Shown here: positions 3,969 to 32,400 of the stretch, piece by piece | How the letters are laid out: each line of letters starts with the position of its first letter | Position numbering within the stretch: position 1 is the first letter of the stretch | Origin: Bacteroidales bacterium | GTDB taxonomy: Bacteria; Bacteroidota; Bacteroidia; Bacteroidales; UBA932 | Assembly: GCA_017615615.1 (NCBI GenBank) | Contig: JAFZZW010000091.1 | Coordinates: 1-46,921 of the forward strand | Reading direction: 5' to 3' | Length of the DNA stretch: 46,921 nt | The notes under the pieces: model-generated | The model's input: the letters and a program-made list of their open reading frames with translations, nothing else | What the model was told of the DNA's origin: nothing | The model's database searches: none | Made by a program: the position numbers and the translations under genes

Positions 3969-4111
3969 CGAAGCGTCCAGTTTTACCTGCCTCATTTTTT
4001 CACCTTCGGACCCTGCGGGTCCTCGTCCCTCCCGCAAGCGGGCCCCTCCCATTCATAGGCCATGGGCGGCCACGTTCCAAAATGAGGCAGGTAAAACAGT
4101 ACGCTTCGCTA
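3966..4111. repeat. 146-bp inverted-repeat element between convergent genes
   Basis: Two 33-nt arms (3966-3998 and 4079-4111) are inverted copies differing at two positions. The left arm begins with the TAG stop of the GH78 gene and the right arm ends with the TAG stop of the glpT-like gene, so the element supplies both stop codons. The 80-nt centre holds three further small palindromes: GGACCC/GGGTCC (4008-4022), CCCGC/GCGGG (4031-4042) and GGCC/GGCC (4058-4071). It could act as a bidirectional terminator or barrier hairpin, or be a non-autonomous MITE- or REP-like element. No transposase is nearby and no target-site duplication is evident. Confidence 0.8.
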
Positions 4112-8676: not shown

Positions 8677-10995
8677 CTATGGTAGTTGTTTATTGGCGAA
8701 ATCGAGCATCCAGCGCCAGTCGTCGGCGTCGATGCCGTGGAGGCCGTCGCGGCGGACGTATCCGAGGTTATGTCCGATGGCCCCGGTGTCTTTATTGGAC
8801 GGCCATTCGTACAGCGGCAGGCCTTCTTCTCCCAGCAGATTCCATACCGGAGATGCCGACTGCAGGGAGAGGTACTCGCCGTAAGTGTCGAACCAGGGGT
8901 TGTTGAAGCCCTCGACGAGGAGGCGGCGCGGGGCCACGCAGGCAAGCAGCATGTGCTGGTCGAAGGGCATTTTCTTCTCGTTCCCGGCGTATTTTGCGAA
9001 CTCCTTGCACCACCAGTAGCCGAAGTGGTCGATCTCGGAGCCGACATACTCTCCGAAGTTGCGTTTGGCAAGCGGCACTCCCCCGCCACCTGTCTGGTTG
9101 ACGCAGACGTTCTTGAAGCGCTCGTCGAACGCTGCGGCGACAAGGGCGGCCTTGCCGAGGCGGGAGCTGCCCGTAAGGAGCACGCGGGATGCATCTATAC
9201 CGGCATCCTTTTCCAGCATGTCCATACCGCGGCACAGGCCCCAGGCCCAGGCCATGATGGAGCCGGTGGTGCAGTCCTTGTCCCAGAGTCCGTACATTCC
9301 TGTCCTGGCGATTGCAAGCTGCTCGCCGGCATTCTGAAGGCTGTCCGGGTCGGGAGAGATATCTTCGTAGCAGGCGGTTACGAAAGCGTAGCCGCGGGAG
9401 AGGATTTCATCTATGGGGAAGACGGTTGCCGACTTGGGGTGGCGGGTGCCGGAGAGGACATCATCGTTGCCGTAATAGTTGAGCAGCATGACTGCGGGAA
9501 CGCTGCCCTGAGTGTCCCCGGGATATACTATCATCCAGTCGATGTGCGGCCCGGCGCCGTCCTCACGGAACGTCATCCGCACGCGCTTGATGTTCCGGGT
9601 GCCCTCCTGCGAGGGGATCTCTCCGCTCGCTCGAGATGACAAAGGTGTCAGATACACCGGGCTTGCGGGGGGCATGTCGCCGTACATTTCCTTCTGGAAG
9701 ATGTCGAGTATCTCCCGGCGCCTGGCTGGCCACTGCCCGGGACTTTCCACCTTCCTGCCGTCGGCGAATACCAGAGGGTCCGGAAGGACGTAGGGCTTGA
9801 CTTTTTCTTCCTTCTTGTTGTAGTTCCAGGACCATTTGTTATCCTGGAAATGGAGGTTCCGCACCGTGTACTGGTCGGGGGCCTCGACAATGTTGCGGCT
9901 GCGGGTGCACTTGAGGGTGCAGCGCTGGACGGTAATGTCTTCCGCAACCGATACCGGAAGGTCAGTGCGGCCTCCCAGGTCGAAAAACTGCGTCCATGGC
10001 TTGATGTAGACGACATTCTTAACTTTCCCGCTGACGTCTTCAACCAGGATGCCGGCATAACGCTGCGGGGTGTCGGGGCGCATCTTGAGCCAGAGGAGGC
10101 GGTCGGTGCCGTCGGCCTTGCAGCGGCGCAGGATGACGTTTTCCGCTCCTATGCATTCGCTCCCGAATACCAGCGCACCGGGGCCGTGGCCGAACTCGCA
10201 ATCCTCCACGAGGATGTTGGAATTGGTGCCGTTGTCGGGGTTCTCGTCGGCCCAGGGACCCTTTCCGCCCTTGATGGCGATGAGGTCGTCGCCGGTGGCG
10301 AGTTTGCAGCCCGAGATGTGGACGTTGCAGCAGGCGTCGAGGTCGATGCCATCGGAAGACGGGGCCTTGACGGGTTTAATCGGAGCGTAAATATCAACAC
10401 CCTTTATGGAAACGTTGTCGCATTTGTACAGGTGGATGTTCCAGAATGCCGAATTGCGAAGCTTCACCCCCTCTATGCGGACGTCCGAACTGCGGCTGAC
10501 GCTCACAAGACGGGCGCGCCGCACCTCCAGATTGGTGCACTGGGGGTTCTCCTTGCGCCTTGCCCAGAACGCCTCCCAGGCAGGAAGGCCGTTGCCGTCG
10601 AGCGTACCCTTGCCGGTGATGGAGAAACCGTCGCAGCCGTCGGCATTCACCAGCGCCGCCGACCATGGCTGCAGCACGCCCTCTATGTGTACCTGCACGT
10701 CGGGATAATCCTCCTGCGCCGTGCTGCCCTTGAGCACCGCTCCTTCTTCCAGCCGCAGCCTGGTGCCGGGCTTGAAAAAGAGCGCTCCGGACATCCAGAC
10801 ACCGGCAGGCACCACCACCGTTCCACCCCTGACAGCAGCAGCGTCGATGGCCTTCTGGATGGCACGGGTCTGGACTAGCGTGCTGTCCGGCACTGCGCCG
10901 TAAGACGTTATGGCATAATTCTTTTCCCGTTTGCAGTTGCCTTGTGCGGGAAGTGCCATGGCACAGCAGATAAGAATGGCGGCGAGAGTTCTCAT
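8677..10995 (-). CDS. GH28 polygalacturonase-like / CE15 glucuronoyl-esterase-like fusion
   Basis: A 772-aa secreted two-enzyme protein with a signal peptide (about 1-19, cut after LPAQG). Residues about 22-395 form a GH28 right-handed beta-helix with SSDGID, GDDLIAIK, GHGPGALVFGSE and the late LLWLKMR segment, equivalent to the NTD/DD/GHG/RIK set of polygalacturonases and rhamnogalacturonases. From about 400 comes an alpha/beta-hydrolase of CE15 type. Its GSSRLGK motif carries the likely nucleophile Ser611, and HMLLACVAPRRLLVEGF follows. CE15 enzymes cleave esters of glucuronic acid. The combination suggests a uronate-containing, possibly pectic, substrate. A REP-like palindrome is inserted in frame at about residues 451-462. 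Chain order with the rhamnose genes implies co-expression. Confidence 0.85.
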   Translation of the reverse strand: MRTLAAILICCAMALPAQGNCKREKNYAITSYGAVPDSTLVQTRAIQKAIDAAAVRGGTVVVPAGVWMSGALFFKPGTRLRLEEGAVLKGSTAQEDYPDVQVHIEGVLQPWSAALVNADGCDGFSITGKGTLDGNGLPAWEAFWARRKENPQCTNLEVRRARLVSVSRSSDVRIEGVKLRNSAFWNIHLYKCDNVSIKGVDIYAPIKPVKAPSSDGIDLDACCNVHISGCKLATGDDLIAIKGGKGPWADENPDNGTNSNILVEDCEFGHGPGALVFGSECIGAENVILRRCKADGTDRLLWLKMRPDTPQRYAGILVEDVSGKVKNVVYIKPWTQFFDLGGRTDLPVSVAEDITVQRCTLKCTRSRNIVEAPDQYTVRNLHFQDNKWSWNYNKKEEKVKPYVLPDPLVFADGRKVESPGQWPARRREILDIFQKEMYGDMPPASPVYLTPLSSRASGEIPSQEGTRNIKRVRMTFREDGAGPHIDWMIVYPGDTQGSVPAVMLLNYYGNDDVLSGTRHPKSATVFPIDEILSRGYAFVTACYEDISPDPDSLQNAGEQLAIARTGMYGLWDKDCTTGSIMAWAWGLCRGMDMLEKDAGIDASRVLLTGSSRLGKAALVAAAFDERFKNVCVNQTGGGGVPLAKRNFGEYVGSEIDHFGYWWCKEFAKYAGNEKKMPFDQHMLLACVAPRRLLVEGFNNPWFDTYGEYLSLQSASPVWNLLGEEGLPLYEWPSNKDTGAIGHNLGYVRRDGLHGIDADDWRWMLDFANKQLP
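9611..9643 (-). repeat. REP-like palindrome inside the GH28-CE15 gene
   Basis: Minus-strand sequence resembling TGTCATCTCGAGCGAGCGG followed by AGAGATCC is a variant of the palindrome at 14406, 18160, 18231 and 19459. It is read in a different frame from the rhaB and GH2 copies (LSSRASGEIPS) and lies in a loop of the esterase half. No stop or frameshift results. Confidence 0.65.
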
Positions 10996-11005
10996 GACGG
11001 GGCTG

Positions 11006-11815
11006 TTATTTCGGGAGGCCGAAGACGGTGCTGAGCTGCCGCATCTGGGCGTCCGTCATGCCTTCCGGCTCGAAGCCCATGTTGCGTGAGGCAATATAGA
11101 TCTGCGCGGCCTTGTTGAGGACATCGACCTGGTCGAAGGCGTCCATGATGTCGGCATCGACGGCGAAGACACCGTGCTTTTCCCACATCACCACGTCGTA
11201 ATCATCGTCTATGGCCTTGATTGTTGCGTCCGCCAGTTCCACGCTGGACGGGAGCATATACGGAACCATGCCGAGGCCGCGGGGGCAGAAGGCCTTGGTC
11301 TCCGGAATCATGGACCACAGCATGCGGGTGGCGGCGTCCTTTTCCATCCACGCCTTGCTGTGCGTGAGCGCAACAAGTTCGATGGGATGAGTGTGCAGGG
11401 ATGCCCGGTAGGGCGAACCTTTGGCCAGCAGATAATCGTGTACTGCCAGATGGGACGGCAACTCCGAAGTAGGCGCGACCGGCTGGTCCGCAACTATTTC
11501 GTAGTGGGCGCAGTCGGCGGTGATACGGATAATGGAGCCGTTGGCCATGGGCTCGCGTGCGAGGTCGCGCATCCGTTTGCCTGTGCCTTTGCAGTAGAAC
11601 CAGCAGCCGGCCAGGTGCGGAAGCGTCTTGCCTATGGGCCTGGGCGCGCTTATGGCGGGAAGCGCCCGCATGGCGTCGTCCGCCCACTCGGTGACGTTGA
11701 CCGTTATGTTGCCGCCGTTGCGCTCGGCCCATCCCTTCTGCCAGAGGTATCCGGCGACTTCCGCCACCTTGTCTATCTGCCCTTTGAGGGCCGGTCTGTT
11801 ATCAAGGATACTCAT
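11006..11815 (-). CDS. rhaD: Rhamnulose-1-phosphate aldolase
   Basis: Splits L-rhamnulose 1-phosphate into DHAP and L-lactaldehyde, the last step of phosphorylating rhamnose catabolism. The protein is 269 aa (Escherichia coli RhaD is 274). The zinc ligands are visible as SLHTHPIEL (His141, His143) and WEKHGVFAV (His214), with the N-terminal GGNITVNVT phosphate-binding segment. The open frame extends far upstream into the rhaT region, but the true start is ATG at 11815, overlapping the rhaT stop by 4 nt (ATGA). No lactaldehyde reductase or dehydrogenase gene is in the window. Confidence 0.95.
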   Translation of the reverse strand: MSILDNRPALKGQIDKVAEVAGYLWQKGWAERNGGNITVNVTEWADDAMRALPAISAPRPIGKTLPHLAGCWFYCKGTGKRMRDLAREPMANGSIIRITADCAHYEIVADQPVAPTSELPSHLAVHDYLLAKGSPYRASLHTHPIELVALTHSKAWMEKDAATRMLWSMIPETKAFCPRGLGMVPYMLPSSVELADATIKAIDDDYDVVMWEKHGVFAVDADIMDAFDQVDVLNKAAQIYIASRNMGFEPEGMTDAQMRQLSTVFGLPK

Positions 11816-12831
11816 ATGAGCTGAGGCAGGAAAGTACTGATAATAAGGACGATGATGCCTGCGACAAGCACGGCGACGGTCTTGCGGGAGACGCCTTTCC
11901 ACTCCTTGAGGATAATGCCCCAGACGTTGCTGAACACGACGTTGAGCGACATCAGGATACACCAGCTGAAGGTGATGAGGACGGGATACCCGGCGAGGAA
12001 GCCCTTGCCGAGGCTGAGCCCGAAGAACTGGCTGTACCACAGGAGGCCGGCGAGGCAGCAGAAGACTATGTTGTTGCCCCAGAGACTCCCCTTGCGGTAA
12101 TCGCCCCAGGTCTTGTTCCTTCCGTTCTGGTACAGGCAGTAGCATGCGTTGGTAAGGAATCCGCCGAATGTCACCAGCAGGGTTGCCGGAAGCGTCTGGA
12201 ATATGGGACGGGTACCCTCCAGATACAGGTTCTGGCCGAAGCTGAGGCCGATGTTGAAGCAAGCGCTCATGAAGCCGGCGAGCAGGGCGACGAAGATGCC
12301 CTTGCCGAAGTTGAAGTCCTTGACGGCCTTCTTCTTTTCTTCTTCCGGAAGAGCGGCGCTCTTCATGGCGCCTGCGATTCCGATGATGGCGATTCCGATG
12401 AGCGTTACCACGACTCCGATTATTACGGCGCCTGTGAGGTCCGCGGCATGTCCGGTAAATACGGGGCCGAGGATGGCGCCGAGGCCGGAGCAGGTGCCGA
12501 GGGCGATGCTCTGGCCCAGAGCGACGCCGAGGTAGCGCATGCTGAGGCCGAAGGTGAGGCCGCCGACGCCCCAAAGGGCTCCGAAGAGGATGGTGAGAAG
12601 GGTACTCTTGGGGTCAGCCTGCATGAGGCCCAGCAGGTCCCCGAAGCTTCCGGAGGTGCCGGACACGGAAAGCAGCGCTCCCAGCAGCGGGAACAGCAGC
12701 CATGCGAACACGCCCTGCACCAGCCAGTAGCTCTCCCAGCTCCAGGACTTTATCTTGTTGATCGGAACATAGCTGCTGCTCTGGCAGAACGCTCCGACTG
12801 CAATAATCAGTAGACCGATAATCAGATACAT
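11812..12831 (-). CDS. rhaT: L-rhamnose/H+ symporter
   Basis: A 339-aa inner-membrane carrier with ten hydrophobic segments, of the RhaT family in the drug/metabolite transporter superfamily. Family hallmarks are the N-terminal AVGAFCQSSSYVPINKIKSWSWE, GALWGVGGLTFGLSMRYLG and GQSIALGTCSGLGAILGP. It would bring free rhamnose, released in the periplasm or outside, into the cytoplasm for the isomerase 5 nt upstream. Its stop overlaps the rhaD start. Confidence 0.95.
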   Translation of the reverse strand: MYLIIGLLIIAVGAFCQSSSYVPINKIKSWSWESYWLVQGVFAWLLFPLLGALLSVSGTSGSFGDLLGLMQADPKSTLLTILFGALWGVGGLTFGLSMRYLGVALGQSIALGTCSGLGAILGPVFTGHAADLTGAVIIGVVVTLIGIAIIGIAGAMKSAALPEEEKKKAVKDFNFGKGIFVALLAGFMSACFNIGLSFGQNLYLEGTRPIFQTLPATLLVTFGGFLTNACYCLYQNGRNKTWGDYRKGSLWGNNIVFCCLAGLLWYSQFFGLSLGKGFLAGYPVLITFSWCILMSLNVVFSNVWGIILKEWKGVSRKTVAVLVAGIIVLIISTFLPQLI

Positions 12832-12836
12832 AATAA

Positions 12837-14087
12837 TTATCGTTTACTTGTAACGTCTTTTTCGTACTTTTCTATGGCGGGGATGAACTCTTCGCCGACG
12901 GGGACGCCGTTCTTGAGGTTGAAGTAATCGAAGACGGCGCCGAAGGGCATGGTCTTGGCCTCTTCCAGGAGGGCGAGGCGCTGGAAGCCCTTGCCGGCGT
13001 CCTCGTACTCACGGAGCTTTGCGAGAGGCTCCAGAAGGGCGCTGAGGAGGCACTTCTGGGTGGCGCGGGTGCCGATTACGTAGGCGCCGATACGGTTGAT
13101 GGCGGCGTCGAAGTAATCGAGGCCGATATGTGCGCGACTGAGTGCGTCCGCACGGACTATTTCCTTGAAGAGGTCCAGCGTCTGGTCGTTCATGATGGTC
13201 ACGTGGTCGGAGTCCCAGCGGATGGGGCGGCTGACATGGAGCATCAGCTCAGGAACGAACAGCAGCAGGGACGCCACCATGTCGGACACGTTCTCGGTCA
13301 TTTCGTAATGGCCGGTGTCGAGGGTGTACATCAGCTTGCGGGTGGCGCAGTAGCCGGCGACGAAATCGTGGCTGCCGACAGTATAACTCTCGAGCCCGAT
13401 GCCGAAGAGCTTGGCCTCAAGGCAGGTCTTCATGCCCGGGAGGTCCTCCTTGAGGATTTCATCTAGCGACCGGGCGAAAATTTCGCGGTAGCGCTTGCGT
13501 TCCACGGTCTGGTCCTTGGAGCCGTCGTGCACCCATATATTCATGATGCAAGGGTCGTTCTGGGCCTTTCCCATGGCGTCCGCGATGCGGCGGCAGCGCT
13601 TGGTATGCTCGATCCAGAATTCGCGGATGGCGGGATCGGGGTTGGAGAGGCTGAGGTCGCCGCTCTTGGGGTGCCCGAAGGATGTGGAGTTGAAATCCAG
13701 CTTGAGTCCGTTCTCCCGGGCCCACTGGATCCAGCTTTCAAAATGCTTTACCTCTACCTGGTCGCGGTCGACGTATTTGCCGCCGAAGTCGCCGTAAATC
13801 TCGTGCAGATTGAGCCTGTGGTTGCCTGCGATGAGGCTTTTGGCGAAGAGGACGTCGGCGCGGACTTCGTCTATGTTGCGGGCGCGGCCGGGATAATTGC
13901 CGGTGGTCTGGATGCCGCCGGAGAGGCCCGCGGCGCTCTCGAAACCTATTACGTCGTCTGTCTGCCAGCAATGGAGCGAAATGGGTGTGCGCTCCAGCGT
14001 TTCAATCGCTTTGTCGGTGTCGACTCCGAGTGCCGCGTAACGCTCGCGCGCGATCTCGTAGGACTTGAGGATTTGGGATTCGTTCAT
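12837..14087 (-). CDS. rhaA: L-rhamnose isomerase
   Basis: Converts L-rhamnose to L-rhamnulose; a metal-dependent TIM-barrel sugar isomerase. The 416-aa length is normal. Recognisable family segments are ISLHCWQTDDVIGFE near the N-terminus, EAKLFGIGLESYTVGSHDF, YTLDTGHYEMTENVSDM, HVSRPIRWDSDHV (metal-binding His and Asp) and AHIGLDYFDAAINRI. It lies 1 nt after rhaB and 5 nt before rhaT, so the four rhamnose genes form one translational block. Confidence 0.96.
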   Translation of the reverse strand: MNESQILKSYEIARERYAALGVDTDKAIETLERTPISLHCWQTDDVIGFESAAGLSGGIQTTGNYPGRARNIDEVRADVLFAKSLIAGNHRLNLHEIYGDFGGKYVDRDQVEVKHFESWIQWARENGLKLDFNSTSFGHPKSGDLSLSNPDPAIREFWIEHTKRCRRIADAMGKAQNDPCIMNIWVHDGSKDQTVERKRYREIFARSLDEILKEDLPGMKTCLEAKLFGIGLESYTVGSHDFVAGYCATRKLMYTLDTGHYEMTENVSDMVASLLLFVPELMLHVSRPIRWDSDHVTIMNDQTLDLFKEIVRADALSRAHIGLDYFDAAINRIGAYVIGTRATQKCLLSALLEPLAKLREYEDAGKGFQRLALLEEAKTMPFGAVFDYFNLKNGVPVGEEFIPAIEKYEKDVTSKR

Positions 14088-14088
14088 G

Positions 14089-15486
14089 TTATTTCGGGTT
14101 ATATGTTTTTACTTCGAATGCCTGTGCTATCATGCGCCGCATCTCCCAGCGGTCGGCCACGAGCCCGGCGGCCTTGGCCTGGACCATTATGTTGCCTATG
14201 GCGGTGGCCTCAGTTGGGCCAGCCACCACCGGGATGCCGATGGCGTCCGCCGTCCATTGGTTGAGCAGGACGTTGGCGCTGCCGCCGCCGATTATATGGA
14301 GTTTCTCTATCTTGAACGGGGCGAATTGCTGCAGCATGCCCAGCACCTCCGCGTACCGCTCGGCAAGAGAGTGGTAGATACAGGAAACGACCTGCGCGTC
14401 GGAAGGAGATTTCTCGAATCCGCCCTTCGGGCTCCGCTCGAAAAGACAAGAGACGATTTCTTCAACCATATTGGATGGGTTGGCGAAGCGGGGGTCGTCG
14501 GGGTTGATGCGCCCGGGGAAGGACTCCTCGGCCTTGGCCATCCGGACCAGTTCATCGTACGAATAATCCTTTCCGGCGGCCTTCCAGACCTTGCGGCACT
14601 GCTCCAGGAGCCACATGCCGGTGATGTTCTTGAGGAAGCGCGTGGTGCCCTCGATGCCGCCTTCGTTGGTGAAATTGAGGCGGGCCGATTCGGAATTGAC
14701 AATCGGTTCCGGCACCTCTATTCCCATCAGGCTCCATGTTCCGCTGGAGAGGTAGGCGAAATTTCCGTCGGCGGCCGGGACGGCGGCGATGGCAGATGCC
14801 GTATCGTGCCCCGCAACCGCTACCACAGGGATTCCGTGGTATTTGCCGATCTCCACTCCGGGCTGGACTATTGGAAGGAGGACGTCGGTCCTGAGGCCCA
14901 GCTTCTCCAGCAGCCCCTTGTTGAACTGGCGGGAAGACTGGTCCATCATACCGGAAGTAGATGCGATGGTGTATTCGCAAACCTTATTCCCCGTCAGCAT
15001 ATATGACAGGAGGTCCGGGATGAAGAGGATATCGGCGGCATGCCTCAACGGTGCGAAGCCTTCACGCTGCTGGGCATAAAGCTGGAAAATGGAGTTGAAA
15101 TTCATTATCTGTATGCCAGTGGCGGCATAAAGCTCCTCCCGGGGAACCGTTTCGTAAACCTTTTCCGGGATGCCGTCGGTGTACGGGTCCCTGTATGCGC
15201 GGGGATTGCCGAGCAGCGAACCGTCGGACGCCACGAAACCGAAGTCCACGCCCCAGGTGTCTATGCCGATGGAATCGGGCCGTATGCCCTCCCCTTCCAG
15301 CTGCGAGAGGCATTTGCAGAAATGGTCGTAAATGGCGAGGATGTCCCAGTAGTACTTCCCGCCGAGCTCTATTATGCCGCTGGGAAAGCGGTAAACCTCC
15401 TTCATTTCAAAGCTGCCGCCGTCGAAGGTGGCCAGCACGGCACGCCCGGAAGTGGCGCCGCAGTCGAAGGCTAAGAATCTTTTCAT
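14089..15486 (-). CDS. rhaB: Rhamnulokinase with an in-frame REP-derived segment
   Basis: Phosphorylates L-rhamnulose at C1; FGGY/ASKHA kinase fold, 465 aa. Visible are the phosphate-1 motif FDCGATSGRAV, IGIDTWGVDFGFV, the SSGTWSLMGIE phosphate-2 region and the adenosine motif HIIGGGSANVLLNQWTADA. Residues about 345-360 (SCLFERSPKGGFEKSP) are encoded by a REP-like palindrome. They stand where homologues carry a conserved YCRETGQ-type helix before the RCIxxSLALKY helix. The rest of the kinase appears intact, so activity is likely, but this replacement is odd. The gene overlaps the upstream phosphatase gene by 4 nt. Confidence 0.94.
   Translation of the reverse strand: MKRFLAFDCGATSGRAVLATFDGGSFEMKEVYRFPSGIIELGGKYYWDILAIYDHFCKCLSQLEGEGIRPDSIGIDTWGVDFGFVASDGSLLGNPRAYRDPYTDGIPEKVYETVPREELYAATGIQIMNFNSIFQLYAQQREGFAPLRHAADILFIPDLLSYMLTGNKVCEYTIASTSGMMDQSSRQFNKGLLEKLGLRTDVLLPIVQPGVEIGKYHGIPVVAVAGHDTASAIAAVPAADGNFAYLSSGTWSLMGIEVPEPIVNSESARLNFTNEGGIEGTTRFLKNITGMWLLEQCRKVWKAAGKDYSYDELVRMAKAEESFPGRINPDDPRFANPSNMVEEIVSCLFERSPKGGFEKSPSDAQVVSCIYHSLAERYAEVLGMLQQFAPFKIEKLHIIGGGSANVLLNQWTADAIGIPVVAGPTEATAIGNIMVQAKAAGLVADRWEMRRMIAQAFEVKTYNPK
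14406..14454 (-). repeat. REP-like palindrome inside rhaB
   Basis: On the minus strand the unit runs CTTTTCGAGCGGAGC, then CCGAAGGGCGG, then ATTCGAGAAATC. An inner perfect hairpin (GCCC-TTC-GGGC) is flanked by outer complementary ends. It is translated in the same frame as two copies in the GH2 gene (FERSPKGG-EKS) and adds no stop. Confidence 0.75.
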
Positions 15487-16742
15487 TTTCTTGTTTCCAG
15501 GTAAGCTTTGACTTCATCCCAGTCGTAATAGGGGCCCGAGACGGCCTGGAGCTCCGGGATGAGGGTTTCCTGTTCGTTGACGAGGAATTTCACGAGCACT
15601 CTGCCTTTGCCGTTGCGGTAAAAGACAAGCTGGAGATTCGCGGCAAACGGGCAGTTCCGGGTACCGTTCCATGTACGGACGGCCTGGTCCGCGGTAAGGC
15701 GCGGGTAACCGTAGCCCTCGAGCCCGAAGAAAGAGCAGAGGCCCAGGAACGGCCAGTCGTGCCCGAAGCACAGATCGGCGGCGACGGGCGCACCGGCAAT
15801 CGCCTCGTCCGCCTTCCTTACCATCTCGAACGCCATATTTGCGGCACGGGGCATGCGCCTGTCGCCGAAGTCGACGGAATTGCAATTCAGCAGGTACGCA
15901 TGCAAGGCCCTGCGGCAGTATGACCCGACCACGGCGTCCCACGGCAGCATCGAGAAATAGTTGTCTTCTATACCGTATGCCTGGGCATAGGAAGCGACTG
16001 TGAAAATGTATGCGACTATGCGCCTGGGATTGCTGATGATCATCCTTCCGCGGGCAGGGTCCGTGAACAGTCTGGAATAAACGGCTGCAGTGTCAAAGGG
16101 GAAGGTTGCATTCGAGGCAATTATGGCTGAAGCTTCAGCCTCCCATTCTCTCTTGTACGAGCGGGCTATGTAATACTGGTATTTCTCTCCGCAGTCCCAG
16201 CTGAAGACAAGCTTGTTGTTGCATGCAGCAAGGGAAGAAGTAAACGCAGACATGCTCACCAGGCAGCGCGGCACCGTGGAAGACAATGCGTGTACCTCCC
16301 CTTTGCGGAACACTCCGGGGAAACGGTGATACATCCTTTCCGCCAGCCTGGAGTGCTCCTGTGCGCCGCGGGGCGTCAGGCGCCCGGGCATCCCGTCATG
16401 CAGGGCAAAAACCCTGTCGGCCAGCGCGAGCAAAGAATCCCCTGCCGGAGTCAGGATGCCCTCGGCGGCCCCTACACGCAGCGAATCCCTCAGCTTGGCG
16501 TAGCTTGAGCCGTCACCACCGTCCGAACGGGACCCGTGACGACCGTAATGGCTGATGTAGAACGGTTTGAATCCGCACGGGGGCGGCGTATCCTTAACGG
16601 GAAGGAACTCGTAGGAATGGACATTTAACGCAGCCCTCAGCGGATATTCCCGCAGATAAGCGTCTATCTCATCCGACACCTGTGCGAAAGCCCCCAGCGG
16701 GAAGAGCAGGGCGAGCAGTAATATCAATCGTTGTTTCATCAT
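15483..16742 (-). CDS. Secreted histidine-type phosphatase (branch 2, MINPP/AgpA-like)
   Basis: A 419-aa protein with a cleavable signal peptide (MMKQRLILLLALLFPLGAFAQ). The histidine-phosphatase motif HYGRHGSRSD is present with nucleophilic His69, and a late CFGHDWPF gives the His328-Asp329 proton-donor pair. This is branch 2 of the superfamily, which includes phytases, glucose-1-phosphatase and inositol polyphosphate phosphatases. The substrate is unknown. The start is the first Met of the MM pair, whose ATG overlaps the DUF4861 stop (ATGA); an upstream in-frame Met at 16766 is inside that gene. It overlaps rhaB by 4 nt, so a periplasmic phosphatase is embedded in the rhamnose operon. Confidence 0.82.
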   Translation of the reverse strand: MMKQRLILLLALLFPLGAFAQVSDEIDAYLREYPLRAALNVHSYEFLPVKDTPPPCGFKPFYISHYGRHGSRSDGGDGSSYAKLRDSLRVGAAEGILTPAGDSLLALADRVFALHDGMPGRLTPRGAQEHSRLAERMYHRFPGVFRKGEVHALSSTVPRCLVSMSAFTSSLAACNNKLVFSWDCGEKYQYYIARSYKREWEAEASAIIASNATFPFDTAAVYSRLFTDPARGRMIISNPRRIVAYIFTVASYAQAYGIEDNYFSMLPWDAVVGSYCRRALHAYLLNCNSVDFGDRRMPRAANMAFEMVRKADEAIAGAPVAADLCFGHDWPFLGLCSFFGLEGYGYPRLTADQAVRTWNGTRNCPFAANLQLVFYRNGKGRVLVKFLVNEQETLIPELQAVSGPYYDWDEVKAYLETRK

Positions 16743-17605
16743 ATATCCTTGATAAGTCTGACCCAATCGTCCAGGCCCGCGATGCCGGCTTTGGACCAGC
16801 CGCTGCCGAACCAGTAGATGAAGGTAGTGCCGGGGATGTATGTGGCATGCCCCAGAACGTGGCCGATGGCAGTACCTTGAGGCTGTTCAAACGGCTCGAA
16901 GCCCCAGCTGTCGAAGCCTCCGGGAAGCACTGCGCCGCAGTACATTTCGCCATTCTCTCCGATGTTGCGGTCTCCAAGGTCGGCCGTGGCAATCACCCTG
17001 CTGTCTGCATAATACCCCTGGGGATTCTCAGCATGGACGACTATACCGATTACCATGGGGCACGGGGCATCGAGACCGTCGTAGGTTATTTCTACGCGAT
17101 TGAGGCGCTTGCCGCTGTCCAGTGTGATTAGCCTATGCTCCGTGACCTCCCTGCCGTTGACAATGACAGGGGAATAAGAAAGCCGCACCTGGAAGCGCCT
17201 GGGGCCGTTCTTTAAGATTTCTGCCTCCTTCCAGCACCAGGGATAGACTATGCCGGACGAATCCACCAGCGCCGCGGTGCCGCAGCCGAGCGTGGGGCCG
17301 ACGCCGTAGGAATCCATGCCGTCGCCGTGGTCTGTATGGAATGACAGCTTTTCCGGGCCGAGCGCTTTCTCATAGCGGTCGTGAAGGACGGGGTAAGTGA
17401 CGCTCTTGGTAAAGATATCGTAACCGAAGGCCCGTTCTCCCTTTGCCTGCAAAGCAGGGCCGAACGCCCGGTAGCCGCTGTACTCGTTCTCCCAGATGAG
17501 GTCGTCCTTGCGGTCGGCACGGATTTCTCCGCAGACCGTCACGCTGCGGGAGCATCCGACAAGGCAGAGAAGGCAAGACAGGATAAGAAAAAACCGTAGT
17601 TTCAT
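16739..17605 (-). CDS. DUF4861 family lipoprotein
   Basis: A 288-aa protein with a lipoprotein signal (LCLVGC, Cys18). The body has the DUF4861 pattern: WENEYSGYRAFGPALQ, GYDIFTKSVTYPVLHDRY, FHTDHGDGMDSYGVGPTLG and the aromatic-rich GFEPFEQPQGTAIGHVLG. Members are common in Bacteroidetes loci for pectin, alginate or ulvan-like uronate polysaccharides. No catalytic role is firmly known to me; a lyase- or epimerase-like or sugar-binding beta-sandwich fold is possible. It is co-directional between the GH2 gene (59-nt gap with a weak hairpin) and the phosphatase (4-nt overlap). Confidence 0.75.
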   Translation of the reverse strand: MKLRFFLILSCLLCLVGCSRSVTVCGEIRADRKDDLIWENEYSGYRAFGPALQAKGERAFGYDIFTKSVTYPVLHDRYEKALGPEKLSFHTDHGDGMDSYGVGPTLGCGTAALVDSSGIVYPWCWKEAEILKNGPRRFQVRLSYSPVIVNGREVTEHRLITLDSGKRLNRVEITYDGLDAPCPMVIGIVVHAENPQGYYADSRVIATADLGDRNIGENGEMYCGAVLPGGFDSWGFEPFEQPQGTAIGHVLGHATYIPGTTFIYWFGSGWSKAGIAGLDDWVRLIKDI

Positions 17606-17623
17606 AATCTTCCGACAAGATAA

Positions 17624-17642
17624 TCATTTTTCCCGAAAATGA
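17624..17642 (-). other. Small intercistronic hairpin
   Basis: TCATTTT-5 nt-AAAATGA forms a 7-bp stem in the 59-nt gap between the GH2 and DUF4861 genes. It is too AT-rich and short to be a convincing terminator. It could protect or process the long transcript. Confidence 0.25.
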
Positions 17643-17664
17643 CTACCGAAAAAGGCCGGAGATT

Positions 17665-20600
17665 CTAATACCTGGTCCTGATAGTAAGCGTGGCATCCTC
17701 CAGGCCCGGTGAAGAGGCTCCGAGGAGAATTTTGCCTGCTTCTGCATCGGAAGACTGTACGATAACGGTGAGTTTGCCGTTGAACGCATGCATCTGCGGG
17801 TTCTGGAAGGGTTCCATACACGTGGGGTCTCCGTTGGCGCAGGCCCGGAAGGTGCCCGGGCCGGAGACGTCAAACGAAACGCTGGCGTCCGACATCGGGC
17901 AGAGGTTGCCTTCGGCGTCAACTATGCTGACGGTAACGTATGCAAGGTCATCGCCGTCGGCAATGAGCCTCCGGCCGTCGTATTCGAGCCTGATGCCCGC
18001 CGGCTCTCCGGCAGTGCGTACGCGGACGGTGTCCTGCGACGCTCCGGATGCATCCAGCGATACCGCCATGAGCTCACCGGGTTCGTATTTCACGTCCCAG
18101 CGCAGCCGGTAGCGGGCCTCCACGTTCTCGCTGCGGTCGCCGGTGGTCAAGTTGCGGGGGGATTCCTCGACTCCGCCCTTCGGGCTCCGCTCGGAATGAC
18201 AAGAGGTGTGGACCTTGCCAGCGCTTTTCCTGTCATTTCGACCGAGCGAAGCGAGTGGAGAAATATCCTTGCATCTTATTCCGAGGCTCCTGCCATTGAG
18301 GAAGAGTTCCGCGGCGGGCGCATCGGTGTAAACATATACGGGAACTTCCTGGCCGGTGGACCAGTTCCAGTGTGGCAGCATATGCATCGTATGATCAGAG
18401 GTGTTCCAAACGCTGCGGAACAGCCAGTAACGATCCTTAGGAATGGAGGCAAGGTCAACTATGCCGAACATCGAGCTGTGATTCGGATAGGTATTCTCCT
18501 CATACGGGGTAGGCTCTCCAAGATAATCGAACCCTGTCCAGACAAACTGGCCTATAGCCCAGTTCCAGTCCTCGTGCATGGCAATGTCGCAATCCGGAGT
18601 ATTGGACCATGTCGTGGATTCCAGATCATAGGAAGAGCACTGCTGATCGGGGCTTAATCCCATATCGCGCTTCTTTTCGGCCGGAAGATGATAAACGCCC
18701 CTGGAGCTCAACGTAGAGCCGCTTTCCGCCCCGAGGATAAGCCTGTCGCCGATAGTTTCCCTGAGTTCCAGGAACTTCCATGGATGATAATTAATGCCGA
18801 TGACGTCAAACGCTTCCACCCATTCCTTCTTGAGGAACCTGTTCCACATATGCATGCCCACGGTTACAGGGCGCGTGGGATCTTCCCGATGGCAAATCTC
18901 CGTGAGGAACTTGGCCTCGGTCAGCCCTTCCTGCGGGTCGTCCTTAACGCGGCACACCTCGTTGCCCGTGCTCCACATAATCACGCTGGGATTGTTGCGG
19001 AAGGCACGTATCATGCCGCTGAGGTCCTTCTCCGCCCACTCGTCGAAGTAATTGTGATAGCCGTTGGCGCATTTTGCCGATTTCCACTCGTCAAAGGCCT
19101 CCACCATCATCATGAAGCCCATCTCGTCGCACAGTTGCACCAGTTCGGGTGCGGGCTGATTGTGGGAGGTGCGAACGGCGTTGCAGCCCATATCCTTGAG
19201 AATCTGCAGCTGATGCCTGAGCGCAGGTACGCTCACTGCGGCTCCCAAGGGCCCCAAATCGTGATGCAGGCACACGCCCTTGAACTTTGCGGGCTCCCCG
19301 TTCAGGTAGAACCCTTTGCCGTCGATAAACTCCGCCTTGCGTATGCCGAAGGAGGTAGTCGTTTCGTCCACCAGCTTTCCGTCAGCATAGACACTGCTTA
19401 CGGCTTTATAAAGATTCGGCTCCTCCGGGCTCCAGAGCTTTGGCGATTCGATAGTTATGTCATTTCGACCGACAGATTTCTCGACTCCGCCTTTCAGGCT
19501 CCGCTCGAAATGACAAGAGACCACTGTCCCGTCGGGGCCAAGGATCGTTGTGCAGACTGAGATATTCCGCCCCTTGGCGCCTTCTACGGTCGTTTCAATA
19601 TGCACTGTCGCTTGATCTGCGGATACCTCGGGGGTGGTAATATGTACGCCCCAGACAGGGATGTGGATTGCATCTGTGGTAATCAGGTGGACATTGCGGT
19701 ACAGGCCGGCACCGGGATACCAGCGGGAACTGGCCGGGAGGTTTTCCATGCGCACAAGAACAGTGTTCTCACCCGGGACTGCCACGTCGCTTACATCAAC
19801 GGGAACGGCGCTGTAGCCATTGGGCCAGGAACAAAGCTCCTTTCCGTTTACAGATACCGTTGCGTGGCTCATGGCCCCGTCGAACAGGAGCGTAACATTC
19901 TTGCCTTCCGGAACAGAGAATGTCGTTCTGTACCAACCGATTCCCTCCCAGGGCAGAGCTCCGGTTCGTCCGGGAACATTAACCCAGCCCTCCGAACCGT
20001 TCCACAATTCACTGTTTTCCGCAAACGGGCCGTTTATGGCCCAGTCATGGGGCACCCGCACGTTTTGCCATTCCTCCCCTTCCCGGCGGAATTCCCAGTC
20101 ATGAAGCATGATTTCACGGCGCGGGGATGTATGCAGGGCAAGGTGAGTGACGCGCAAGCCCTCTATGGGTCCAGACGCAACCACCTCCTTCACCTCTCCG
20201 GGCATCAGGTTGAAGCTGTTGTCGGAGAAACGCTTGACGCCGGGGGCGGATAGCCAGACATAGTAAGCCGGCTTGTCGGTGGTAAGGGAAATCACCCATT
20301 TGCCGCCGCGCTCGGAGACGTCAGCAGTCACGTTGGCGTCAGGAACATCTTTGAGGTCCGGGAAAACCGACGGCTCCAGCGGCGCGTCAGGGGCGAATAT
20401 ACGTTTGAGGTGGTAATGCGCGGGCTTCCAGCTGCCGTCGTATTCCAGAGTGGACCAGGACGGCCCGGGCCAGATGTCGTTCAGCTGCCATACGAGTATG
20501 CCGTTGCACTCCGGCAGCGAGCGCCAGTACGATGCCGCCGTCTCCAGGCCGATGGCCTGCTCCAGTTGGGAGAGGTAGATGAGGTCGGCGGAGGAAGACG

Positions 20601-22113
20601 GATTGAACAGATTGCCGATACGCTTCATTATGTTCTCATACCCGCCCTTTTCCCGCATGTGGGCCTTCTGCTCTTCCATGGTAGAAAGCATGCCGGAGAA
20701 GCTGGAGTGCCCGAACTCCGACATGAAGTGCGGGTGATACTTGTAATATTCAGACAGCGGGCGGGCATTCTTGGAGACGTCCCATAGGTGCATGTCACCA
20801 TTGGAATCATCGTTCCAGCCGTTGGTGCTGTAGTCTCCCGGACCTCCGCAGGGCGAAGTGGGCCAGTACAGCCGCTCCGGGTCCAGGGATGCGACCAAAT
20901 TGCCGCGAAGGTCGATAAGAGCCTTATAATCGGACAGGTAGAGCTGCGGATTCTGCTTCCAGATGCGCTTGTTCATGTTGTCCATACCCTCGTTGTCGCC
21001 GCACCAGAGGGCGATGGAAGGATGGCTCTGGAGCCGTTTGACCTGATGGGTAATCTCCTCCCGCACCTGGCCCAAAAACTCTTCGCTTGCCGGATACATG
21101 CCGCAGGCGAACATGAAGTCGTGCCAGATCAGAAGGCCCAGCGAGTCGCAGATCTCGTAGAAACAGTCGGGCTCGAATTTGCCGCCGCCCCAGAGGCGTA
21201 TCATGTTCATGTTGGCGTCGCGGGCGGAGGACAGCAGGTCGCGGTAACGTTCGCGCGTCTGGGCTGTCTCCGAGGTGTCGCATGGGATCCAGTTAGCCCC
21301 CCTTGCGAATATGGGCTTGCCGTTGACCTTGAAGGCAAGATTATCGCCGACTTCAATCTTGCGCAGGCCTACTTTCTTCGCCAGAGTCTGACCGTCTGCG
21401 TTCACGCTTGCCTCGTACAGATACTGACTGCCCATTCCGGCGGGCCACCAGAGCTTCGGACGGCAGATGCTGAAAGACTGTTCGACAGTATTGACACCCG
21501 GAGCAAGCGTCACCTTCTGCCTGCGAACCTTTTTGCCGAATCGGAATTCAACTTCGGTAGTGCCACCTTCAGGAGAAAAAAATTCCGCAGCTAGCGTAAC
21601 CTTACATCTGCCGGAGTGCGAATGGTCCTGGGTACAGCGCAGGTAATCCACCCGCGCCACGTTCACCGTAATCAGCTTCACAGGACCGGCAAACCCTGCG
21701 TACATGCACTTGGGGCCCCAGTCCCATCCGCCGTGATACTGCGGCTTGCGTATCAGGTTGAGGTGCGGCACAAAACCCATTCCACCCATCGGTACGGGAT
21801 ATGCCAGGGCGTCGTTAAGCTGTTCGGAGACGGCTTCCGCATCATGGAATTCTCCCTTCAGTTCGTTCTCTCCCGCATGCAGCAGCGGCTTCACATTCCA
21901 CTCCCACCTGCGGAAGCGGTTGCTGGTAGAGCCAACATACTGTCCGTTAATACTAACGTCGCAAAACGTATCCACATCCTCAGCCCGCAAGTACACCGCC
22001 TTGGCCTCCAGCATTTCACCAGTTACATCCAAGGTTTTGGTTACAACTGTCTGGGCCGAAGCCAGCACGGCACCTGCCATCATCAACCAACCGATAGTAA
22101 GGGCTTTTTTCAT
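17665..22113 (-). CDS. Double glycoside hydrolase: GH2 beta-mannosidase-like plus GH2 beta-galactosidase-like
   Basis: A 1482-aa secreted protein (signal peptide 1-20, ASAQ) made of two complete GH2 catalytic units. The first (about 22-640) is beta-mannosidase-like, with acid/base Glu375 in WCGDNEGMD and nucleophile Glu466 in MSEFGHSSF. Its N-terminal sugar-binding domain is shortened: the usual VPG-x-VH opening is missing after the signal peptide. The second (from about 665, [13 protein letters not shown] ... [11 protein letters not shown]) is of beta-galactosidase/beta-glucuronidase type, with acid/base Glu1052 in WSTGNEV and nucleophile Glu1130 in ILGAESGS. Three REP-like units are read through in frame (about 865-885 and 1282-1320), all in loops between strands. 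The sugar specificity of either half is not certain. First of the twelve operon genes, 17 nt after the DUF1016 gene. Confidence 0.87.
18160..18268. repeat. Inverted pair of REP-like palindromes inside the GH2 gene
   Basis: Two copies face each other. One (18160-18205) is in minus orientation and reads [14 protein letters not shown] in the protein. The other (18231-18268) is in plus orientation, with the core TTTCGACCGAGCGAAGCGAG. About 25 nt separate them. They account for most of a roughly 45-residue insert between the conserved LFLNGRSLG and [14 protein letters not shown] strands of the GH2 C-terminal domain. Confidence 0.75.
19459..19521. repeat. REP-like palindrome with partial inverted copy inside the GH2 gene
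   Basis: A 12-14 nt plus-orientation start of the unit (GTCATTTCGACC, 19459-19470) abuts a complete minus-orientation copy ending in GAAATGACAAGAGA. In the protein it reads [20 protein letters not shown], just before the conserved [14 protein letters not shown] segment of the second GH2 unit. Confidence 0.75.
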
Positions 22114-22130
22114 TTCAATATATGATAATA

Positions 22131-23273
22131 CTAAAGGAGTTTCTTGAGTTCCTCGATGTCCGGCAGAGCTTTTCTGAACTTCTCCGGCATATCTTCCTTG
22201 GTCCGGAAAGTGGCCACGCCCATCGGCTTGTTGTAGTCCTTGATAAGGTACTCGACGATTGCTTTGTCTGCACTCTTGCAGAGAATCAAACCTATGGAAG
22301 GGTTCTCGTTCGGCTTACGGACATAATCATCCAAGACAGTCAGATAGCTGTTCAGTTGACCAAGATAGGCGGTTTTGAAAGGACCTCGTTTCAATTCCAC
22401 GGCTACGAGTGATCCCAGCTCCCGATTGTAGAACAGCAGGTCAATCTTGAAAGTGTGGCCTTTGACCTCAACGGCATACTGATTCCTGATAAAGAGGAAA
22501 TCCTGGCCGAAACGAAGTATGAAATCCCGGATATTGTCCACAATCTCATTCTCCAGGACGCGCTCGTCTACATCTTCAATGTCGCCGGCATCAAGTTCTT
22601 CCGTGTTGATGAAATCAAGTAAGTACTCATCCTTGAATGCACGAAGGGCTTGGCGGGCACTTTTGGCATCAGTAATGGTAGCAAGGAAGTTGTTCGGCAA
22701 GACACCATGATGATGGAAATCGTCTTCTGCTATTGATTTGAGAAGCGCCTCCTTTGAAAGGTGAGACAGCGCCGTATGGCGGATGTAGAACAATCGAGCG
22801 TCTCGTTCCTTCACCTTCTCCAGAATTCGGATATGGTGAGTGAATGGCACGGCCAAAAACTCTTCCAGGGGAAGGCCCTCGTAATTCGCCAACCGGAATT
22901 GGCGAATTGCAATTGGCTCAGAATCCAACACTTGTAAATCGCCAACCGCGATTGGCGATTTAGGCGGTTCGATAGACCAGGCTTCATAGAAAAGCCGCAT
23001 ATTCTTGAGGCTGCTCACACCGAAGCCCATCAGACCCGGAAGATCCTCTTTCAGCTGAGTGCTGATTAACTCCAAGGCCCCAGTACCCCAATAACCGGTA
23101 CGCGAATTCTCCGATATGTATCGGCCGATGGCGTAATACAACTGTAATTGCTCCTGATTCGCAAGCCGGATGGCGTTGTACTGGCTTTGGAGAATGGCTG
23201 TCTTGATCAGTTCGACGGCCTGGAGGTATTTGGGCTCTATCTTGTCCATAGGTTGTCGTGTTAAACGATTCAT
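22131..23273 (-). CDS. DUF1016 / YhcG-type PDDEXK nuclease family protein
   Basis: A 380-aa protein of the DUF1016 family: an N-terminal helical domain ([53 protein letters not shown]) and a C-terminal PDDEXK-like nuclease domain ([37 protein letters not shown]). The expected Asp and Glu-x-Lys occur in KIDLLFYN and AVELKRG. The biochemical role is poorly defined; relatives often sit near restriction or defence genes. Residues about 105-130, between the halves, are encoded by two small palindromes and look like a variable linker. A second Met at 23249 is also a credible start. It has its own promoter-like sequence, and the GH2 operon starts only 17 nt downstream. Confidence 0.85.
22883..22961 (-). 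repeat. Two intragenic palindromes in the DUF1016 linker
   Basis: AATTCGCCAA-6 nt-TTGGCGAATT (22883-22908) and AAATCGCCAA-6 nt-TTGGCGATTT (22936-22961) are perfect 10-bp inverted repeats sharing the TTGGCGA core, 27 nt apart. Both are translated ([12 protein letters not shown] and [10 protein letters not shown]). They form a repeat pair independent of the REP-like family in the rhamnose operon. Confidence 0.8.
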
Positions 23274-29447: not shown

Positions 29448-32400
29448 TTAGGAAATGTGGGCGATGATGGGATAGTGGTCGGACAGGAAAGTCTCGCCGT
29501 TCGTGGTATAACCGCCGTAGTTACGGACGGCGGAAGTCAGGGTGACATAAGAATCCACCGTGATGGATTTGCTCACCCAGATGTGATCCACCTTATTGCG
29601 GTCCTTGCTGGTGTCCCCGAAAGCATTGTAGGTGTAAAGATTCTGGTTCTCTTCGCTGACAATCGAGGCTGCGGAATACCTGGTGTTATTCATCGATGAT
29701 TTGATGCTGTCCCAGCATGCGTTTCCAATCACACAGTTGAAATCGCCCATAAGGATAACCGGATAATTGTTGGTATTAAGCGCAGCAATCCGGCTTTCAA
29801 CCAGCGCTGTGGCTTTGGAGAAACCGCTGTTCGAGTCGTTCATCGGGAAATGGGTCGTGACGTAGAAGAAATAACGGCCGGTCGCCTTTTCCCGGACGGT
29901 AGCATAGAGGGCCGTCCTTTCATAACCGTCCCAACTGGTCCCTTCACTGGAATAGCTGTCGCGAAGCCAGAAGTGACCGATGTCGCTCAACTCTACCGTA
30001 CTTGTTTTGTAGAGGATAGCGTTTGACTTGTCGCTGTAACGATAACCCGTATAAGCACTGAGGTTGTCTGTCAGGTAATTCCAAGGGTGCTTGCCCTCTG
30101 TCGCAAGGTCCCACACGTCAAGATCCTTGACTTCCTGAAGACCGATGATGTCCGGGCTTTCGCCGTTTATCATCGACACGATGGGGCTCTTGCGATCGCT
30201 CCAGTTGCTTCCCTCGCGGATATTGAAGCTCATAAGATTGAGGTTGGCTGGGGCTGCGGTCTCGCTGGTGACATAAATGTTCACCGTGCCGGCCGTGGAA
30301 CCTATTGCATAATCCTCGACGTTTCCAGCGTGAATCGTCAGCGGCTCGCTCATGGCGTTATCATAATCATAGCCCCAGCGATGGATGGTACCGGTAACCA
30401 GAATCGGAGTCTCAGATGTACCGAACACTTTTTCATTATTGCCGCCAATCCAACCGATGACCATACCCACCTTCATCGAAGAGGTAGAAACGATATTGCC
30501 GGTATAATGGCAGCGCTGCGAATCGCTTGAATAAGGAACAAGGCTCGGATAACTTCCTGTTGCGCCGGTAGCAAAGTAGCCGATAAGGCCGCCGACAGAT
30601 ACTACGCTGCGGTCCGTATTCCATATATTCTCTGCCGTAATATCAGCCTCGCAATAGGAAGTGCGGATGTGCTGATACTGAGAGCTACCGTCTGCAAAAC
30701 CAAGCAGGCCGCCCACATAGCCCTTCTTGCATCTTACGTTGATAGGAGCAGTATCGTATACCCTGCACCCACGCATGGATCCTGAAGATCCGGTGATGCC
30801 GCCAACGGTAATATGGCTGTTTCCGGTAACGGTAATGGGACCGCGATTGGTGCTGAAGGTAACTTTTGCATTGGAGAGGCCGTAACCTTGTTTTCCGATG
30901 ATACCTCCGACAGCAGACATATTTCTTGTTGTATCATCCCAAGAGCCGTCGTAGTTGACGTTTATGGCACCCCTGTTGGAGCAAGAATTAATGCTAAGCC
31001 CTTCCCAGGTCAGGCCGGCGACTCCTCCGACTTTGAGCAGGCAGGGGCGTCTCGACCAATAATCATTATTCGCAGGACAGATGGCGATAGCCGTGATGGG
31101 CGCATAGTTGACGCAACTTTCCATGGATCCGTTACTCTGGCCGCAGATTCCCGCCACATTCAGGCATCCAGTCTTATCGACCTTCGGTAGTGCGTCCATA
31201 TGACCGTGATTCAGGGTAATGGCGCCTGCGGCAAGATTCTCACAGTGATTATAACTGCTCTTGACATCTGTAGTCTTCTCATGGTCCAATGCCCTTCCGC
31301 AAATACCGGCCACACTGATGTTGCCGTCAGTATCAGTAGTTTCACTGCTTATGAATGACCACTGGTGGGAATAGCCGTCACCGTACTGGGCATAGAGGGA
31401 TACAGGACCGCTGTTGGTGCAGTAATCAAATGTGGACTTCCTGGTCCAGCCAACAATGCCTGCCATGGCAACCGCCCAGTGGGAATATGCCGTAGCGTCG
31501 ATGGTGATGGCACCGCTGTTGGAGCAATGATCAAAAGTACTGCCGCTAGCGTTATTGGATGCACCGATCAGACCGCCAAGGGCAATGTTGTTGGTAATGT
31601 TCTCAGTTGCGGTAATAGTAATGCTTGCAGCGTTATTAACATTAGTGTAGGTTCCGCCGTTGTCAAGAGCCGCAAGGGCACCGAACTCGGTTACCGTTTG
31701 TGCCGGAGTAAATGCGCAGGTGCCGTCCAGAGTAAGGTTGCTCACGGAACCGCTGATCTCGGCAAACAGGGGAACGCTGGAAGTGATGTTGCTGATTACA
31801 TGGTCGTTACCGTTAAGAGTGCCGCCGAAGCCGGAGGCGCTGGTGATGGTGTAACCGGTCATGTCAAGGTCAGCTGTGATATTATAAGTACCCGTGTCAC
31901 TGGAGGAAGTGCCTGCAAGGAATGCAGCCAGTTCACGGGGCGAGTCGATACTGTTGTCGTAGCCGCCCATGACCGGCGTCCAGTTGGCGCTGGAAAGGTC
32001 GAGGTTGAGGGGCTTTATGGTAGCGCGCTTGTATTCCCTGGAGGAGCCGGAAACATAGGTATAATCTCCTGTACTGGTGCGGATTACATAGGTTCCGCCG
32101 TATGTTCCGGGGGCTACTACCATGTAGAAAACAGCGCCATTCTCTTTGCTGTTACCTACAGTTACAGGGCTGGCACCGTTGCCGGAAACGACTACGTCAT
32201 TTTCTGTATAACCGCTGATGGCGGGCATATTGTCCGCGTCAACGCTTGTAAGATTGTAGGTGAACGATCCTGCGCAGGCTGCTCCGGCCTGGAACGTCAC
32301 ATTCTCAATCTTTTCGCCTGCCGCAAAGCCGCTGCTCTTGTAGATGTTGAGTTTGATGACGGAGCCAAGGTTCATAAACTGAAGCGTGCCCACTTCGGTG

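Follow-up and report, generated by a model that had tools for sequence, protein, structure and literature searches.

The closest described counterparts of the palindromes reported here are the CGTC REPs, which, in the accessible part of Di Nocera et al. 2013 (PMC3733652), are characterised by a CGTC or TGTC tag, an AT at the start of the stem, a stem of 8-9 bp with a loop of 4-5 nt, and a short unpaired tail that is mostly CCA. According to the same part of that paper, these elements are known from five phyla including Bacteroidetes, some copies are intragenic, most REPs being intergenic, and they were described without a dedicated transposase, no RAYT having been found flanked by CGTC units. 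The class is stated there to include RPE-4 and RPE-6 of Rickettsia conorii, and different REPs are mentioned at about the same recB site in Xanthomonas campestris and X. oryzae. For RPEs in general, the excerpts of PMC10969869 and PMC6649704 give a length of about 150 bp; of those of R. conorii, nearly half are located in ORFs according to this source. The Bacteroidetes subclass 2.6 of RAYT/TnpA-REP proteins is described, in the available excerpt of PMC6006769, as having atypical palindromes beside its genes. Intragenic REPs in Rickettsia and some other bacteria are already known; no report of in-frame REPs in Bacteroidales was found in the literature searched, a scope outside which most subscription papers fall. 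What is new here is that core enzymes of one genome are decorated with such elements and that the same protein loops are repeatedly occupied by different REP families across a genus. This provides a natural comparative series in which the movement of mobile palindromes, the limits of what a protein will accept and the origin of new protein segments can be studied.

The stretch of DNA analysed here (the window, 46,921 nt) is contig C61 of a 1.93-Mb assembly, a MAG that is 72% complete. A first-pass annotation of the window had claimed at least five palindromic units within the coding sequences of GH28-CE15, rhaB and, three times, the double GH2, with no frame broken. Five two-ended units of one palindrome family were indeed located in these genes, all of which are read from the minus strand, and each unit is read through with the frame intact. 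The units and their host genes are as follows.

8677..10995, minus strand: GH28-CE15 host gene
9614..9641, minus strand: REP unit of 28 nt, peptide LSSRASGEIP, between the GH28 and CE15 matches of GH28-CE15
14089..15486, minus strand: rhaB host gene (FGGY kinase)
14406..14448, minus strand: REP unit of 43 nt, peptide CLFERSPKGGFEKSP, in a variable loop of RhaB
17665..22113, minus strand: double GH2 host gene
18159..18201, minus strand: REP unit of 43 nt, in-frame 15-residue peptide, within the DUF4982 match of the double GH2
18231..18267, plus strand (opposite to the gene): REP unit of 37 nt, 13-residue peptide, adjoining the 18159..18201 unit in the double GH2
19458..19470, plus strand: lone left end encoding GRND, adjoining the 19473..19515 unit
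19473..19515, minus strand: REP unit of 43 nt, 15-residue peptide, within the Glyco_hydro_2 match of the double GH2

The shortest of the window copies is the one in GH28-CE15, which differs from the end consensus by 3 mismatches. The core, with up to 3 mismatches allowed, matched the window three times as compared to a mean of 0.07 in 100 shuffles. A generic CGTC-type detector (pattern [CT]GTCATNNN ... complementary NNN ... ATC[CT]) found 3 units against a shuffle mean of 0.22 and a maximum of 2 (50 shuffles), a count that overlooks the rhaB copy, mutated at its left end, and the 18231 copy, mutated at its right end. The earlier statement that five of the six frames of the unit are free of stops holds exactly for three window copies; of the other two, that in rhaB has six open frames and that at 19473 has four.

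The ends of the family read TGTCATTTCGA(G/C)C and (C/G)GAGAAATC(T/C)C. With one unit as BLAST query, 67 matches were obtained in the genome (E up to 10), and the stretches fetched around them contained 44 two-ended units. The tag is TGTC in 43 of these and GGTC in one, the search having itself asked for a TGTC-like end (up to 2 mismatches); in the units of relatives both CGTC and TGTC tags were seen. Nearly all 44 units have AT...AT at the start of the stem, the rhaB copy being mutated there (TGTCTTTT). The inner stem pair is kept as G-C in 26 and C-G in 16 units and broken in two, the compound call L023 and the GH28-CE15 copy, and several units show T/C changes in the terminal stem together with a matching change on the opposite side. 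Owing to the variable centre, the units measure 28-44 nt; two compound calls are longer, at 64 and 69 nt.

The units share with the CGTC superfamily the CGTC/TGTC tag, the AT stem start and the presence of intragenic copies. Family A departs from the published stem (8-9 bp) and loop (4-5 nt), its stem being interrupted and its inner hairpin variable. A short tail is present, reading mostly CTC or CCC where CCA is published. A D-type unit (L035:1856-1883) has an 8-bp stem and a 6-nt loop. The units carry TGTC instead of a GTAG tag, and their class is CGTC/TGTC, not GTAG. Judged by sequence, they are best described as a variant of the CGTC/TGTC-type REP, with most, not all, of the published description fitting. 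The parallel with Rickettsia drawn in the first-pass annotation is apt, since this class includes RPE-4 and RPE-6, a link made through the published class definition, as far as the excerpt gives it, and not through comparison with RPE sequences. As in Rickettsia, the palindromes are read in frame within unrelated genes (here at 16 sites in 15 genes); the excerpts differ from the present case in concerning another phylum and elements of about 150 bp, whereas here several families occupy one loop across a genus.

A search with the left-end pattern gave 65 matches in the genome, against 5 with a reversed control. Places newly covered in this way added 7 units, two of which (L255 and L030:3157) have a diverged right end; left-end matches in L260 and L261 were judged to be chance. 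The resulting census comprises 51 units at 36 sites, and copies cut by contig ends (L025, the end of L018) and lone left ends (e.g. the L012 row and L033) lie outside this number. It is partial because the MAG is 72% complete and contigs break at REPs: contigs C17 and C31 end inside REP copies, and C25 and C28 end near them. Gene calls were made from open frames, third-position GC and family matches, with no gene finder. On this basis, 25 units at 16 sites in 15 genes are in frame within coding sequence. Ten of these sites have a family match that spans the insert or matches to either side of it, and the other six have a match on one side only.

Sites with a family match spanning the insert or on both sides of it (10): BacA, IspE, HI0933-like protein, AtpG (ATP synthase gamma), PheT, YgiQ, GH28-CE15, RhaB and double GH2 (two sites)
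Sites with a family match on one side only (6): TsaB, TilS, RlmI-like methyltransferase, AtpB, TrmB and RNase R

Some of the latter six are leaders or tails. The TsaB gene (L012:4716-4969) contains two full units with a series of REP left halves in between, which gives a long in-frame repeat (PVISSGGREE...). The remaining 26 units are distributed over 20 sites that are either extragenic or at a gene edge, although one of them, the L034 unit, can be read as a C-terminal tail. That no copy lies between genes is true within the window, but with 20 of 36 sites outside genes or at their edges the idea that copies shun intergenic space is rejected for the genome; the 16 genic sites nevertheless contrast with the mostly intergenic location given in the available part of PMC3733652. 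Matches to the palindrome were also obtained in 28 of 100 other genomes of the same genus (E up to 0.001), and together with the 51 copies in the genome this disposes of the possibility that the element is unique to the window loci.

That REP copies were joined into genes by faulty assembly or binning is hardly credible. The genome is a MAG, the four contig ends just mentioned lie in or near REPs, and the TilS site lies at the end of a contig, its 5' side lacking a family match, all of which would suit such an artefact; the frames are, however, open across the inserts, family matches span the insert or flank it on both sides at ten sites, and many independent assemblies carry inserts at the same RhaB loop (see below). 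It is also improbable that the palindromes are kept for a DNA or RNA hairpin role, such as mRNA stability, termination or protein binding, with the peptide as a side effect. Such a role would agree with an inner pair kept in two alternative forms even within genes and with the location of over half of the sites outside genes or at edges, but at these sites orthologues often carry a different hairpin or none, and kept pairs are equally expected if only intact units move.

The 25 in-gene units are spread over all five open frames, three of them used by units oriented like the gene (11, 4 and 3 units) and two by units oriented against it (4 and 3 units). The frame that contains TGA is used by none of the 25, as required for an unbroken gene. 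The frame encoding FERSPKGG had been taken as favoured, and it is indeed used by three of the five window copies; genome-wide it accounts for only 3 of the 25 in-gene copies, is one of the two rarest frames and is rejected as the favoured one. The suggestion that the unit can enter genes harmlessly fits particular loops, linkers and tails, not genes at large.

The most extensive comparison was made for rhaB, with 81 genes consisting of the window gene and the best 80 of 414 candidates. The generic detector located 29 units in a single RhaB loop, in 18 of the 81 genes, not counting the mutated copy of the window gene, and a further 5 units outside this loop, all within 65 nt of the 3' end of the open frame; shuffling predicts 1.3 units in total. 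The term loop is used here on the basis of alignments, namely a gap of RhaB relative to 4c23, a variable stretch of AtpG relative to 4xd7 and, for BacA, a position between two segments matched to 5oon. The RhaB-loop units belong to at least three sequence types (TTTCGA; TTCTGA/CCTGAG; CCCGG and TTGCCG) and occur in both orientations, and 11 genes hold two or more of them. A 63-nt query representing one type matched 54 of 101 genomes, the present one included, and this type is multi-copy, with at least 9 matches in each of the query's two source genomes. Many rhaB relatives are without insert. Among the 80 orthologues, those with a REP mostly have one of another family, and the same broad family occurs in three (L116, L134 and L178), the L178 unit being read in the same frame as that of the window gene and giving a related peptide, CHFDQAKRAEKS. 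Two rhaB genes assigned to one MAG (Tb.RUG.384), L134 and L149, carry different REPs in the same loop, as a result of either a strain mixture or two gene copies.

That the inserted peptides are adaptive, for example by tuning loop function or binding partners, we regard as highly improbable. The repeated use of one loop and the presence of inserts in core enzymes are what selection for a peptide could produce; the use of five frames genome-wide and the occurrence of several families and both orientations at one site argue that no common peptide is selected, and the insert is absent from many relatives.

The distribution of REPs was examined on a rhaB tree inferred for this one gene by a quick method with the loop left out, in which 23 of 78 inner branches are weak. 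Labels had been assigned by hand before the detector was available, and 20 genes were labelled as REP-bearing (A 4, B 11, CD 5). REP-free and REP-bearing genes are intermingled, and the REP label needs at least 14 changes, a figure that counts four 'remnants' and three other inserts as 'no'; two of these hand-labelled remnants, L129 and L149, hold full units according to the detector. By type, 4 (A), 8 (B) and 4 (CD) changes are needed, of which well-supported branches force 3, 6 and 4. The tree places the same-family REPs of L116, L134 and L178 as separate gains. The label 'none', which includes L147 and L151 with a degenerate REP-like stretch, requires 15 changes as compared to a shuffled mean of 22.9, and well-supported branches alone force 9 of the 15. 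REP labels are thus more clustered than in shuffled sets, which implies that some REPs were inherited. Close sisters show in-frame differences in the loop, L157 exceeding L147 by 45 nt and L158 exceeding L157 by 27 nt.

In 11 of the 18 REP-bearing rhaB genes the first unit starts at an identical offset, across more than one type, and the AGAT end of these units coincides with the GAGAT of Glu-Ile codons. Furthermore, the REP in rhaB seems to replace an older loop of 18 residues instead of simply extending it. These observations bear on an alternative that dispenses with a transposase, in which short stretches of shared sequence allow copies to spread through recombination or gene conversion, and a REP already present in a loop is exchanged for one of another family, since all share GTCAT and ATCT ends. 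Occupation of exactly one offset by more than one family with AGAT placed on GAGAT, replacement of the classical loop and the fact that no cognate transposase is shown all favour this proposal. We nevertheless consider it rather unlikely: the shared ends comprise only 4-6 nt, the mixing of REP-free and REP-bearing genes on the tree means that gains into REP-free loops would be needed too, the common offset would also be expected if a transposase chose its target or if some of the 11 genes inherited the unit together, and GAGAT is also present at this site in 14 of the 63 genes without a unit.

Similar observations were made for the double GH2 and for AtpG, for which the detector scans were done without shuffle control. 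Four of the searches for matches contributed 30 loci each to the reading, and a further one 12. Two full-length GH2 orthologues (79% identity, among the matches listed) are both without the 18159/18231 pair. At the 19473 site one of them (L069) is plain, the other (L068) has a decayed TGTC-type unit that is different and starts with TGTCATTCCGAGCG, and a partial orthologue (L070, 75%) has a complete unit of another family. A further site, plain in the window gene, is occupied in both, by a unit in L068 and by a REP-like insert in L069. Two GH2 sites are thus shared landing places. Among 30 AtpG frames listed, that of the genome itself included, five (its own, L196, L199, L203 and L206) have units of differing type in one or both of two variable loops; the AtpG of L210 has a unit at the start of the open frame. 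The recB case of Xanthomonas is a direct precedent for a shared landing site, with differing REPs at one gene site in two species; as excerpted, it covers one gene and two species with the REP type unstated, whereas here 18 of 81 rhaB genes as well as GH2 and AtpG are involved. The nearest orthologues used for the window copies have 75-87% protein identity, with no DNA-level empty site among them. As to presence and absence among orthologues, which the first-pass annotation had proposed as a check, GH2 and rhaB orthologues are mostly plain or carry another family. The orthologues compared, which are relatives and not unrelated lineages, do not share the same insert, so that the finding named there as refuting, one peptide at one site in unrelated lineages, was not observed. 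Its description of REP-like palindromes read in frame is borne out by the evidence from the genome as a whole and from the relatives.

We consider it probable (about 0.8) that CGTC-type REPs have inserted time and again, and that copies in frame persist in protein loops that tolerate them. REP units would copy themselves around the genome, landing between as well as inside genes, and a copy in a gene would persist only if its length keeps the frame, if the frame read lacks a stop and if the site, a loop, linker or tail, tolerates extra residues. In related species the same tolerant loops would be hit repeatedly by whichever REP family is at hand, so that REPs would act as a recurrent source of loop length and sequence. 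The units with their frames and copy number, the conserved hairpin pair, the differences between orthologues and the recurrence at common sites are direct results. We infer from them that the units arrived by insertion, most likely through single-strand transposition with a Y1/RAYT-type enzyme working in trans, and the inserted peptides are presumably near-neutral. Several results count against repeated insertion with survival in tolerant loops, namely the six in-gene sites with a one-sided family match (TsaB to RNase R above), the replacement of the rhaB loop, the clustering of labels on the tree, the missing DNA-level empty site, the partial census and the lack of a transposase tied to the window family.

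A RAYT-type Y1 transposase, which the first-pass annotation had advised looking for, is represented in the genome by at least seven candidate genes, none of which is closely bracketed by the window family.

Y1/RAYT-like genes: L109-L114 and L262, on contigs C62, C29, C45, C13, C48, C34 and C53

Six of these came from one search, the last three only at E values of 0.0035 to 0.049, and the seventh is C53:26877-27704. L109 is just above the Pfam Y1_Tnp cutoff and L110 below it, and both are under the NCBIfam cutoff for REP-associated transposases. Five of the seven have their own palindromes on both sides, as recognised by eye, and these are unlike each other. In the flanks of all seven genes no full units of the window family were found close on both sides, and no copies were found immediately beside a RAYT gene at the loci examined. 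The strongest candidate (L109 on C62) has flanking palindromes with a TTTCGACC end, one side of which reads CATTTCGACC, equal to 10 nt of the left end of the window family. A RAYT gene of a relative (L251) has palindromes starting with TGTCATCC on both sides, without the ATCT tail. The presence of several Y1-type proteins of about 300 amino acids with atypical palindromes alongside resembles RAYT subclass 2.6, a likeness by description as far as the excerpt of PMC6006769 goes, but the palindromes of this kind found here are not the family of the window genes.

Upstream of L111, three units lie at 270-370 nt, on this side only. At the homologous loci L233 and L234, units lie about 0.4-0.6 kb off on both sides, in or beside neighbouring open frames (in them for L233). 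The 16 L111-type loci (L225-L240) gave 15 detector hits in 60 kb, at 7 of the 16 loci, some of which look spurious. The resulting density is 0.25 per kb; it is 0.04-0.13 per kb for the loci of rhaB, AtpG and GH2 and 0.06 for 14 other RAYT loci, and 12 Y1 loci gave no hit. This excess could be a pointer to the cognate enzyme, and the matter bears on the question of 2013 as to what mobilises CGTC REPs. A more specific scheme is possible, if tentative: CGTC-type REPs would insert at an AGAT/ATCT equal to their own tail, driven by one of many Y1 enzymes in trans, and particular loops of conserved proteins would serve as lasting docking sites for successive families, so that REP turnover would keep loops evolving throughout a large genus of Bacteroidales from the rumen.

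Three other features of the window were noted. The gene adjoining that of the double GH2 (22131-23273) encodes a YhcG/DUF1016 PDDEXK nuclease. An inverted repeat of 33 nt (3966-3998 and 4079-4111, 94% complementary, arms 80 nt apart) is located between two convergent open frames. The large neighbouring open frames at 29448-32909 and 33063-36401 have several long stretches in common (73-82% DNA identity), which suggests a tandem duplication.
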